64,000 nucleotides of DNA from Acidimicrobiales bacterium. Lineage in GTDB: Bacteria > Actinomycetota > Acidimicrobiia > Acidimicrobiales > UBA8592. The DNA lies in contig JASLWO010000068.1 of assembly GCA_030740795.1 (NCBI GenBank), positions 1 through 64,000 on the forward strand, written 5' to 3'. Made by a program: the position numbers and the translations under genes. How positions within the stretch are numbered: the stretch's first letter is position 1; every line of letters starts with the position of its first letter. The notes below the pieces were generated by a model. That model saw only the letters and a list, made by a program, of their open reading frames with translations, did no database searches and was not told the origin of the DNA. Positions 55,066 to 58,567 of this stretch are shown in pieces.

Positions 55066-55818
55066 CTAAATATTGAGCATTCCCCCATCAACTCTGATGA
55101 TTTGTCCCGTCACATAGGAAGCAAGATCAGAAGCGAGGAAGCAGATCACGTTTGCGATCTCTTCAGGTGTTCCCCATTTACCTAATGGGACACGTTTGAC
55201 GAAGTTCTCGAGCACGTTCTCTTCACCTAACAGTTCAAATGTTGGTTCCCACATCTCGGTCAAGCAAAGGCCTGGCGCAACACTATTCACTCGAACTCCC
55301 TTGTTCGCCCATTCATTGCTCAGGTTCTTTGAGAGCGTATTCAGTCCACCCTTTGAGGCGGCATAGGCTCCTTGAGTTCCTCCAGCTCCAGCAGCTGCTG
55401 TTGAGGATACGTTCACAATGTTCCCCTTAGTAGCAAAGAGATCTTTTGCGAAGACTGAACACAGCATGAATGCTTGACGCAGATTCACAAGAAGCGTTTC
55501 ATCAATCGCTTGAGCTGTTGCTCGATGTGCTGGTTCATTTCTCTCGACTGCAGCATTGTTTACAAGAATGTCGATCTTCTCGAACTTCTCCATTGTCCTC
55601 AATCTGATGAGGTCAATGGTCCTATCAGCACTCAGGTCACAATCAACAACTAATGATTCATTCTCTAATTCAACAACGATCTCATTCATCTTGTCTTTGC
55701 TTCTTGCTACCAGAACAACATTTGCTCCACCAGCATCCAACTGTCGAACTGTAGCTTCCCCGATCCCACGACTAGCACCAGTGACCACAGCGACCTTGCC
55801 TTTAAAATTAAACCCCAT
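55066..55818 (-). CDS. Short-chain dehydrogenase/reductase
   Basis: 250 residues from ATG at 55818 (AAGGGG six bases before); ATG at 55833 is a longer start. TGASRGIG at 12-19, NNAA (near 83), SSTAAAG with the Ser, YAASKGG Tyr-Lys, and IIRVDGG. Classical FabG-like SDR. It precedes the second P450 on the same strand and may oxidise the alcohol that enzyme forms. That link rests on position only. Confidence 0.87.
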   Translation of the reverse strand: MGFNFKGKVAVVTGASRGIGEATVRQLDAGGANVVLVARSKDKMNEIVVELENESLVVDCDLSADRTIDLIRLRTMEKFEKIDILVNNAAVERNEPAHRATAQAIDETLLVNLRQAFMLCSVFAKDLFATKGNIVNVSSTAAAGAGGTQGAYAASKGGLNTLSKNLSNEWANKGVRVNSVAPGLCLTEMWEPTFELLGEENVLENFVKRVPLGKWGTPEEIANVICFLASDLASYVTGQIIRVDGGMLNI

Positions 55819-55886
55819 TAGATCCCCTTTCATGAATCATTCTTACAGGTAAAGCAAATTATGTCTGATAATGGCACAATAGAACT

Positions 55887-56717
55887 ATGGATACTCTATT
55901 TGACCCTTCTACATATGAGACGATTTCTGTGGAGATAAGAAATAACGTTGGAATAGTCACCTTAAACCGCCCCGATGTATTAAACGCATTCAATGACACT
56001 ATGTGCGCAGAAATAAAAAATACTTGGCGAGCTTTTCGCGAAATTGATGAAGTCCGCACCATCCTTTTAACAGCTGCTGGTCAAAAAGCATTTTGCGTTG
56101 GGATTGACCGAAGTGGTGAGATGTCAGCGCTTGAAGAAACAGAGAACCTATACGGTACTTCCAACAACTATATGTATAACGATCCGGGTGATGATTTAGG
56201 ACCTAAATCCTGCGATCTTTGGAAACCTGTCATTTGCGCTGTGAACGGCATGTGCTGCGGAGGAGCATTCTATTTTCTCGCTGAATGCGACATTGTCCTA
56301 GCTTCGGAAAATGCCAGCTTCTTTGACCCTCATGTCACCTATGGAATGCCAGCAGTTTATGAACCAATGAAAATGACACAACGCATACCTTTAGGGGAAA
56401 TATTAAGACTGACTTTAATGGGCAACCACGAACGAATTAGCGCTGACACCGCACTCAGGATAGGTCTTATCAGTGAAGTAACTTCAATTGATGACTTGCA
56501 AGAAAAAGCTGCATGGATAGCAGAAACAATTGCTAGCCAACCTCCAATAGCAGTCCAAGCTAGTCTGCGCGCCATTTGGGCTGCCAACGACCTTGGTCGA
56601 CTAGACGCCCTATCTCTAGCTCCTTCTATCCTTACCTCTGGCATGTCCAAATCTGCCATGAAAGCAGGGCAAGAGGTCTTTGAAAGCGGTGAACGACTTA
56701 ATTACCGCACTCGGTGA
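55887..56717 (+). CDS. Enoyl-CoA hydratase/isomerase family protein
   Basis: 276 residues, crotonase fold. LNRPDVLNAFNDTM near 31-44, oxyanion loops AFCVGIDRSG (near 71) and CCGGAFYFLAECDIVLA (near 126-142). PHVTYGMPAVYEPMKMTQRIP takes the place of the Glu-bearing loop. CACAAT six bases before the ATG is a weak leaderless -10. Substrate unknown. 44 bases before the leuA leader promoter. Confidence 0.87.
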   Translation: MDTLFDPSTYETISVEIRNNVGIVTLNRPDVLNAFNDTMCAEIKNTWRAFREIDEVRTILLTAAGQKAFCVGIDRSGEMSALEETENLYGTSNNYMYNDPGDDLGPKSCDLWKPVICAVNGMCCGGAFYFLAECDIVLASENASFFDPHVTYGMPAVYEPMKMTQRIPLGEILRLTLMGNHERISADTALRIGLISEVTSIDDLQEKAAWIAETIASQPPIAVQASLRAIWAANDLGRLDALSLAPSILTSGMSKSAMKAGQEVFESGERLNYRTR

Positions 56718-56726
56718 CTTTGAACA

Positions 56727-56755
56727 TTGGGATATAGAAAATTTCTCAGTAGCAT
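56727..56755 (+). promoter_or_regulatory. leuA leader promoter
   Basis: TTGGGA (56727-56732), 17-base spacer, TAGCAT (56750-56755), then six bases to the ATG of the leader peptide. Good spacing; the transcript should begin at or next to the leader ATG. Confidence 0.6.
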
Positions 56756-56761
56756 TTAAGC

Positions 56762-56809
56762 ATGCACAACCTACTCCTTGATCTACGACTTACGTGCCCG
56801 GTGGTCTGA
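56762..56809 (+). CDS. Leucine-rich leader peptide of leuA
   Basis: Fifteen codons, MHNLLLDLRLTCPVV, with five Leu codons (CTA, CTC, CTT, CTA, CTT), 49 bases before leuA and directly at the predicted start of the transcript. No two consecutive Leu tRNAs of one type are needed, but one third of the peptide is Leu, so scarcity of charged Leu-tRNA would stall ribosomes here. This is the usual arrangement for amino-acid-controlled attenuation of leucine synthesis. Confidence 0.75.
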   Translation: MHNLLLDLRLTCPVV

Positions 56810-56839
56810 TTCATCCAGCCATCGGGAACATCCGTCGTA
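56784..56839 (+). promoter_or_regulatory. leuA attenuator-type RNA structure
   Basis: CCCGGTGG (56797-56804), covering the last codons of the leader, pairs fully with CCATCGGG (56819-56826) over a 14-base loop. Outside it TACGAC (56784-56789) pairs with GTCGTA (56834-56839). A ribosome stalled at the Leu codons would open the outer stem. No U-run follows, so control may be on translation through the region near GAGAGG (56847-56852), though this is inferred. Confidence 0.5.
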
Positions 56840-56857
56840 ACAAGTTGAGAGGAAAAA

Positions 56858-58567
56858 ATGAGCACCAGTAAAAACCCAACAAATCGCCAAGTGAAAAGCC
56901 CAATGGCTTACCAAAGATATCGACCATTTGCACCGATAGACCTACCAGATAGAACCTGGCCAAATGCAATTATCGAAAAAGCTCCTTTATGGTGTTCGGT
57001 TGATCTTAGAGATGGCAACCAAGCTCTAATAGAACCAATGGACCCTGATAGGAAATGGCGCATGTTCACGAAACTCGTTGAAATTGGGTTCAAAGAAATT
57101 GAGGTGGGATTCCCCTCAGCGTCTGAAGCTGACTTCACTTTCGTTCGTGAAATCATTGAAGAAGGAGCCATACCAGATGACGTAACCATTCAGGTGCTCG
57201 TACAAAGTCGACGTGAATTGATTGATAGGACATATGAAGCTATAAGCGGAGCAAAACAAGCAATCGTGCATTTCTATAACTCAACCTCAACTTTGCAAAG
57301 AGAAGTTGTCTTTGGGCTTGATACCAATGGCATCAAACAAATCGCTACTGATGCTGCTGCTTATTGCAAGGAACTTGAATCCAGCGTTCCAGAAACTCAC
57401 ATTCGATATGAGTACTCTCCAGAGTCATTCACTGGCACTGAACTTCCATTTGCGAAAGAAATTTGTGATGCCGTAGTAGACGTGATTGACCCTACTCGAG
57501 AAAATAAGATTATTCTAAACCTCCCAGCCACTGTTGAAATGGCATCAGCAAATACCTATGGTGACATGATCGAATGGATGCATAGAAACCTAAATCGCAG
57601 AGATGAAATCATCCTGAGTCTCCACCCGCATAATGATCGAGGTACCGGAGTTGCAGCTGCAGAGTTCGGAATAATGGCCGGCGCAGATCGGGTAGAAGGA
57701 ACGTTATTTGGGAATGGAGAACGAACTGGCAATGTCGATCTCATAAATATCGCAATGAACATGTTTAGTCAAGGGATTGACCCAATGCTAGACATAAGAG
57801 ACATTAATGAAATTAGGAGAGTCGCCGAATACTGTAACCAACTCCCCGTCCACCCTCGTCACCCTTATGTAGGTGACCTTGTATACACCGCTTTTTCTGG
57901 TTCACATCAAGATGCAATCAAAAAGGGTTTCGAAGCCTTAACTAAATCGGATACAGAAATCTTTGAAGTCCCTTATATCCCGATTGACCCATTAGACGTA
58001 GGGAGAACATACGAAGATGTCGTACGAGTCAATAGTCAGTCAGGAAAAGGCGGCGTCTCTTATCTCCTGAAGACAGAGAGCCAATTCGACTTACCTCGAA
58101 GAATGCAAATTGAATTCACTAGGTCAATCCAAAAGATCACTGATACCACAGGCAAGGAAATTACTGCTCAACAGATCTTTAACGAATTCGCCGGAGAATA
58201 CTTAGACATTGATTACCCGTATGTACTTCATGGGTATGAGTCAGCCCAGAACCCTGAAGGTCGCGACCGGACTCTGCTCACTGCGCGTTTGTCCTGTGAA
58301 GGTGAGCAAATGATAGTGCAAGGTGAAGGCTCTGGCTCACTTGATGCTTTCGTAAGAGGTTTACGAGAAGCTTTAAGTAAAGATTTACGGGTCTTGGATT
58401 ATCATGAACATTCAAAAGGGGCCGGAGTTGACGCAACGGCCGTTGCGTATGTGGAAATGGCCATTGATGGCACCGAATTATGGGGATGTGGATTACATAC
58501 CGACATAACCCGAGCTTCCATGAGAGCTATCATTAGCGCAATAAACAGGGCAGCTAAAGACGCATAA
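56858..58567 (+). CDS. leuA: 2-isopropylmalate synthase
   Basis: 569 residues of LeuA type 2 (yeast- and actinobacterium-like). DLRDGNQALIEPMD near 50 and GFKEIEVGFPSASEADF; HPHNDRGTGVAAAEF with the metal His residues; GNGERTGNVDLINI. The C-terminal 130 residues are the regulatory LeuA dimer domain with SKGAGVDATAVAYVE. It condenses acetyl-CoA with 2-oxoisovalerate. Start from GAGAGG five bases before ATG. Leader peptide and pairing region precede it. Confidence 0.95.
   Translation: MSTSKNPTNRQVKSPMAYQRYRPFAPIDLPDRTWPNAIIEKAPLWCSVDLRDGNQALIEPMDPDRKWRMFTKLVEIGFKEIEVGFPSASEADFTFVREIIEEGAIPDDVTIQVLVQSRRELIDRTYEAISGAKQAIVHFYNSTSTLQREVVFGLDTNGIKQIATDAAAYCKELESSVPETHIRYEYSPESFTGTELPFAKEICDAVVDVIDPTRENKIILNLPATVEMASANTYGDMIEWMHRNLNRRDEIILSLHPHNDRGTGVAAAEFGIMAGADRVEGTLFGNGERTGNVDLINIAMNMFSQGIDPMLDIRDINEIRRVAEYCNQLPVHPRHPYVGDLVYTAFSGSHQDAIKKGFEALTKSDTEIFEVPYIPIDPLDVGRTYEDVVRVNSQSGKGGVSYLLKTESQFDLPRRMQIEFTRSIQKITDTTGKEITAQQIFNEFAGEYLDIDYPYVLHGYESAQNPEGRDRTLLTARLSCEGEQMIVQGEGSGSLDAFVRGLREALSKDLRVLDYHEHSKGAGVDATAVAYVEMAIDGTELWGCGLHTDITRASMRAIISAINRAAKDA

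Follow-up and report, generated by a model that had tools for sequence, protein, structure and literature searches.

How could a very short, leucine-rich open reading frame (ORF) placed just ahead of leuA control this gene, if it does so at all? The question is raised by one locus in an Acidimicrobiales bacterium, found in a window of 64,000 nt (the whole stretch of DNA that was analysed) from a 2.05-Mb assembly of 72 contigs. The first-pass annotation took the ORF for part of a leucine-sensing leader with an attenuator, and left the mechanism open. Our analysis supports this interpretation, which was right in outline, and narrows the mechanism, for which the best reading, based on comparison and modelling, is that the Leu codons of the leader would sequester the Shine-Dalgarno site of leuA. 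The features on which the argument is built are listed in Table 1.

A leucine-rich leader ahead of leuA

The product of the downstream gene scores 779.6 bits against TIGR00970 (cut-off 697.4) and 863.1 bits against NF002991 (cut-off 455), and, judged by leuA, the closest relatives that have a name are Acidimicrobiaceae and other Acidimicrobiales metagenome assemblies. Upstream of this gene, the sequence bears out what had been proposed, that is, a 15-codon ORF (MHNLLLDLRLTCPVV) with Leu at five of its 15 residues, the ATG of which (56762) lies 6 nt downstream of the TAGCAT box (56750-56755) of a TTGGGA-17-TAGCAT promoter. The -35 box of this promoter is weak, since a scan of 56600-57000 at a strict cut-off returned no sigma-70 promoter, and the leuA mRNA is predicted from the sequence to start, probably, at or adjoining the leader's own ATG. 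Among the 8-28-codon ORFs that follow a TAnnnT box in the window, the leader is the only one on the plus strand in which a single amino acid makes up at least 30% of the residues, and it is because of this unique bias, together with conservation upstream of leuA in 47 loci, that we do not regard it as a chance ORF. Other biased short ORFs linked to a TAnnnT box, on the minus strand (26046 and 32259), were rejected as chance-like, being antisense inside long genes.

Table 1. Features of the leuA leader region (positions in the window)
Feature	Position	Strand	Details
Promoter	56727..56755	+	weak -35 TTGGGA 56727-56732, 17-nt spacer, -10 TAGCAT 56750-56755
Leader ORF MHNLLLDLRLTCPVV	56762..56809	+	15 codons, stop TGA 56807-56809, putatively leaderless
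CCUACUCCUUG, Leu codons CUA CUC CUU and flanking bases	56770..56780	+	anti-Shine-Dalgarno segment; MFE fold, duplex test, covariation
Helix 2 5' arm TACGAC	56784..56789	+	MFE fold
CGACTT (codons Arg-Leu)	56786..56791	+	invariant; switch-like, two possible downstream partners
Helix 3 (hairpin) 5' arm CCCGGTGG	56797..56804	+	covariation
Helix 3 3' arm CCATCGGG	56819..56826	+	MFE fold, covariation
Helix 2 3' arm GTCGTA, proximal partner of CGAC	56834..56839	+	MFE fold, GTCG enrichment
Base stem 3' strand CAAG-UU-GAGAGG (CAAGUUGAGAGG)	56841..56852	+	MFE fold; includes leuA Shine-Dalgarno GAGAGG 56847-56852
AAGUUG, distal partner of CGACUU	56842..56847	+	overlaps base stem 3' strand; AAGT[CT]N?G enrichment
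leuA, 2-isopropylmalate synthase	56858..58567	+	NCBIfam TIGR00970, NF002991

Occurrence among relatives

That the element is real and conserved was confirmed by comparison of leuA loci. Among 80 loci collected with the LeuA protein as query, 29 encode the peptide motif LR[LMI]xxP in a frame ahead of the gene, and in every one of these, found with no codon constraint in the search, Arg-Leu is encoded by CGA CTT, codons that account on average for ~15% of Arg codons (CGA) and ~17% of Leu codons (CTT) in leuA genes (28 of the 29 loci were counted, one N-rich locus being left out). A DNA pattern drawn from the 29 loci matches 42 of the 397 genomes of the order, with at most one copy per genome, and the reversed control pattern has no match among the matches listed; CGACTT and CCC are fixed by this search, and their invariance in the pattern-derived loci is therefore not independent evidence. 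Removal of duplicates left 47 distinct loci, all with leuA downstream, so that the conserved peptide that had been looked for upstream of leuA in relatives does exist, and among the loci checked the element was seen only there. One further pattern match (L189), with neither leuA nor the stop, was discarded as chance.

Across the class, a covariance search gave six strong matches, the window included, all upstream of leuA, while no leuA was found near the weaker matches of 27 bits and below; the search scored 13 candidates per genome and is thus no proof of absence elsewhere. A DNA search with the whole region found strong matches among relatives within the genus only. Compared with Rfam, 55500-57800 matched no family up to E = 1, and five loci of both types (the Acidimicrobiales element and the LEU type discussed below) had none at gathering score. 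Duplications were seen in two leaders: in L048, TTCGACTT occurs twice within one leader (GACTTTCGACTTCTTGCGCTTCGACTT), the second copy ~15 nt upstream of CGACTT, and in L173 a tandem CGACTTCGACTT lies at CGACTT.

Evidence that the leader is read

A stop codon is found at the same place, 15 nt on from CGACTT, in 47/47 loci (TGA in 24, TAA in 19 and TAG in 4); the collection pattern required YTRR at this site and already favours a stop, a constraint under which the peptide-motif loci were not collected. Immediately ahead of CGACTT, all 47 have a Leu codon, written in five ways (CTT, CTG, CTA, CTC and TTA) under a local expression, [CT]TN, that Phe would also pass. It is because the stop codons vary at a fixed place and the Leu position uses five codons that we consider the leader to be read by ribosomes. 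In 42 of the 47 loci, an in-frame ATG, GTG or TTG follows a TAnnnT box at a distance of 5-9 nt (the other two frames have 1 and 0), a spacing that, in terms of sequence, is the layout of leaderless transcripts; it served as an indirect check on the transcript start, whose position near 56762 the first-pass annotation had made a condition. Leu makes up 31% of the residues in 45 leaders, and a short Leu-rich ORF upstream of a leucine-pathway gene, here leuA, is what marks an amino-acid leader.

Pairings and their conservation

The fold of 56755-56860, which the first-pass annotation had proposed as a check, has an energy of -34.7 kcal/mol (z -4.1), with one of 200 shuffles as good, and that of 56762-56880 has a z of -3.6. 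The minimum-energy fold is closed by CCUACUCCUUG against CAAGUUGAGAGG, which carries GAGAGG, and this base stem encloses a TACGAC/GUCGUA helix and a CCCGGUGG/CCAUCGGG hairpin (helix 3), the 5' arm of which overlaps the last leader codons, with the leader stop just 3' of that arm. The two pairs of complementary segments noted before (56784/56834 and 56797/56819) were both confirmed, the second with a single G-U pair. The pairing of the Leu codons (56770-56780) with the leuA Shine-Dalgarno region (56841-56852) is a third one, missed at first, and is functionally the most telling of the three.

Relatedness of the loci inflates pairing and covariation tests, which are thus support rather than proof, and they point the same way for hairpin and base stem. 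For the hairpin, alignment A1 has 31 cells with two-sided changes vs 13.2 in shuffles (0/500), and 100% of cells are paired in the genus alignment A2 (12 sequences). When base stem and hairpin are taken together in A2, 94.3% of cells are paired vs 89.5% in shuffles and at most 44.7% once they are slid out of register, no shuffle out of 500 reaches the share of paired cells, and none the covariation score, and compensatory changes occur in both helices. The Leu-codon segment pairs better with its own Shine-Dalgarno region than with permuted partners (-9.8 vs -8.7 kcal/mol, P = 0.0005, n = 46), and shuffled Leu-codon segments reach -6.2 kcal/mol over the 46 loci. Sequence comparison thus shows conservation of the ORF, the -10 box, the Leu codons, the stop position, the hairpin and the Leu-codon/Shine-Dalgarno pairing.

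The base stem alone does not account for the invariance of CGACUU, which two alternative downstream partners may explain. GTCG occurs downstream of the hairpin in 27 of 46 loci (6.9 in shuffles), AAGT[CT]N?G between hairpin and start codon in 26 (1.8 in shuffles), and one or the other in 36 (8.1 in shuffles). In a permutation test, the downstream region showed no significant relation to the third position of the Leu codon that precedes CGACTT (P = 0.27), which is why we do not claim that helix 2 covaries over 9 bp. The complement of CUNCGACUU carries an additional base, always at one position, in L115, L182 (AAGTCCGAAG) and L149-L153 (AAGTTTGCA or AAGTTCGCA), which suggests a conserved bulge in that helix.

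A predicted leucine-responsive attenuator

What would this arrangement do? In masked folding of 45 loci, a ribosome being assumed to cover the RNA from 15 nt upstream to 12 nt downstream of the A-site codon's first base, opening the Shine-Dalgarno site costs on average 4.85 kcal/mol in naked RNA, 2.35-2.67 kcal/mol with a ribosome on a Leu codon and 4.40 kcal/mol with a ribosome at the stop codon (stop codon vs stalled, Wilcoxon P = 1e-5). The corresponding costs in the window are 5.5, 1.8-3.4 and 5.5 kcal/mol. For about one locus in four, the modelled stall does not free the site, and in many stalled states opening it still takes more than 2 kcal/mol. When the leader is recoded with synonymous codons, sequestration drops slightly, from 4.83 to 4.22 kcal/mol (P = 0.046), a weak effect because an AGGAG-type site can pair with most CU-rich Leu codons in any case. 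Leader codons that sequester the Shine-Dalgarno site and stalling that frees it, the hallmarks of a translational attenuator, were thus found by comparison and modelling, and we consider it likely, on these grounds, that the element is a leucine-responsive translational attenuator ahead of leuA.

We infer a leaderless start, stalling, the direction of control and its translational level, as follows. The leuA mRNA would begin at the ATG of the 15-codon leader, and ribosomes would read it as a leaderless message. By default, CCUACUCCUUG would pair with the Shine-Dalgarno-bearing CAAGUUGAGAGG and close a rod together with the CGAC helix and the CCCGG hairpin, in which state leuA would go untranslated. 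With ample leucine, ribosomes would run on to the stop codon, which lies within the rod, so that the Leu codons are no longer covered, and would then dissociate, upon which the rod would re-form. When charged tRNA-Leu is scarce, a ribosome would stall on the Leu codons, cover them along with the CGACUU segment, and thereby release the Shine-Dalgarno site for translation of leuA.

Relation to known leaders

In actinomycetes, predicted leuA leaders known as the LEU element also have Leu codons paired with the leuA Shine-Dalgarno site (Seliverstov et al., 2005; PMC1262725); its authors found no terminator and considered the mode of action uncertain, and mutations in the S. coelicolor leuA leader had effects inconsistent with classical attenuation, as quoted in that paper. 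The two elements have much in common, including their place upstream of leuA, a short ORF with a run of Leu codons, the lack of a terminator, a base stem between Leu codons and Shine-Dalgarno site, and a hairpin overlapping the end of the ORF. They differ in (i) conserved sequence, which is CGACUU...CCCGG in one and LLLxCRGEA with UGCCGCGGCGAGG in the other, (ii) putatively, structure, with a published pseudoknot in the LEU element and two possible downstream partners of CGACUU here, and (iii) hosts, which are here Acidimicrobiales, absent from the genome list of the LEU paper (PMC1262725). The conserved sequence and structure of the LEU element (the hairpin of the CRGE region) is not shared: a model (R2) built from nine actinomycete LEU-type leaders found here did not match the element of the window, L112, L162, L170, L183, L187 or L190 (E up to 10), and in the reverse comparison the covariance model R1 had no credible match in actinomycete loci. 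As judged from sequence, the Acidimicrobiales element is a lineage-specific version that would work like the LEU element but differs from it by sequence. A bolder proposal, which we find doubtful, is that CGACUU is a true three-way switch, bound to the proximal GUCG in one state and to AAGUCG by the Shine-Dalgarno site in another, and that the element is a separate RNA class, independent of the LEU element, that converged on the same hiding of the leuA ribosome-binding site.

Other leaders share only part of the design. In S. lividans, leuL1, which lies before leuA, is leaderless by RNA-seq and has no typical Rho-independent terminator (PMC8079986); like the leader in the window, it is Leu-rich and 15 residues long, but its peptide (MRFGLLLLSCRGEGL) is of the LEU type. 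In the cys operons of mycobacteria, leaderless polycysteine short ORFs (Canestrari et al., 2020, cited in PMC13236596) likewise carry sensor codons and are described as cases of translation attenuation, but these codons are for cysteine and the genes are others; the citing paper (PMC13236596) discusses mycobacterial translation attenuation by upstream ORFs that block access to a Shine-Dalgarno site. Among the papers searched, none joins Acidimicrobi- with a leader peptide and attenuator.

Closer to home, other Acidimicrobiia in the same collection of leuA loci have leaders such as MSRIHTHLLLL, MTCTNLLLLM and MTFLTGLLLM, which resemble that of the window in being a leaderless Leu run upstream of leuA but differ in that a GC-rich hairpin and a T-run follow; these leaders probably act by transcription termination. 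Near-identical MSRIHTHLLLL peptides ~125 nt before leuA, then a hairpin and T-run, were seen in L054, L058, L061-L066, L069, L071, L085, L099 and L102, a group that includes a Candidatus Poriferisocius assembly. MTCTNLLLLM, MTFLTGLLLM and LLLT leaders, with two hairpins and a T-run before leuA, occur in freshwater and other Acidimicrobiia (L075-L083, L087-L091, L093, L095, L101, L107, L109 and L111).

Weighing other explanations

These U-run leaders suggest that related bacteria control the same gene at transcription, and Rho-dependent control has been proposed for actinobacterial Cys leaders (PMC1262725). Could the element in the window then be a transcriptional attenuator without a U-run, in which a finished leader exposes RNA to Rho and a stalled ribosome shields or refolds it? 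We consider this unlikely, since just 48 nt, for the most part structured, separate leader and leuA in the window, and the preference of the Leu codons for their own Shine-Dalgarno partner is something that termination would not require. As for an intrinsic terminator, none was found in the scan of 56600-57000, and the 3' arm of the hairpin is followed by AACAUC, not by the U-run that follows the GC-rich hairpin of a classical attenuator. The first-pass preference for translational or non-canonical attenuation over intrinsic termination is thus supported.

Quite improbable, to our mind, is that the RNA is primarily a binding site in which a protein or small molecule recognises CGACUU and CCC/GGG, with the ORF secondary. 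The invariance of CGACUU at the nucleotide level, wobble positions included, would fit such a site, and protein binding was favoured by Seliverstov et al. for the related LEU element (PMC1262725), but the enrichment of CGACUU partners means that pairing can explain much of this invariance, and a fixed stop with three different codons, synonymous variation at the Leu position and a conserved start close to a -10 box argue that translation matters. Leu-Arg-Leu-x-x-Pro, present in 47/47 peptides, could be taken for a nascent-peptide arrest motif that holds the ribosome near the stop in response to leucine or another effector, which is very improbable because the search itself imposes part of the motif, and because the motif can follow from constraints on the RNA (Arg-Leu from CGACTT, Pro from the CCC of the hairpin arm). 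That there is no regulation at all, the short ORF, weak -35 box and hairpin having come together by chance, is the least credible reading in view of the fixed geometry, the covariation, the conservation in different genera and families, and the contrast between 42 matched genomes and the reversed pattern without a match among the matches listed.

Outlook

Leader-mediated translational attenuation, the reading that we prefer, would extend leucine-codon control of leuA to the largely uncultured Acidimicrobiales, through an RNA element that is defined, has an invariant core and is absent from Rfam. The codon-masking design is simple enough for direct reporter testing. One phylum would then hold three leader designs upstream of leuA, that is, Shine-Dalgarno masking with CGACUU, the actinomycete LEU element and the terminator attenuator.
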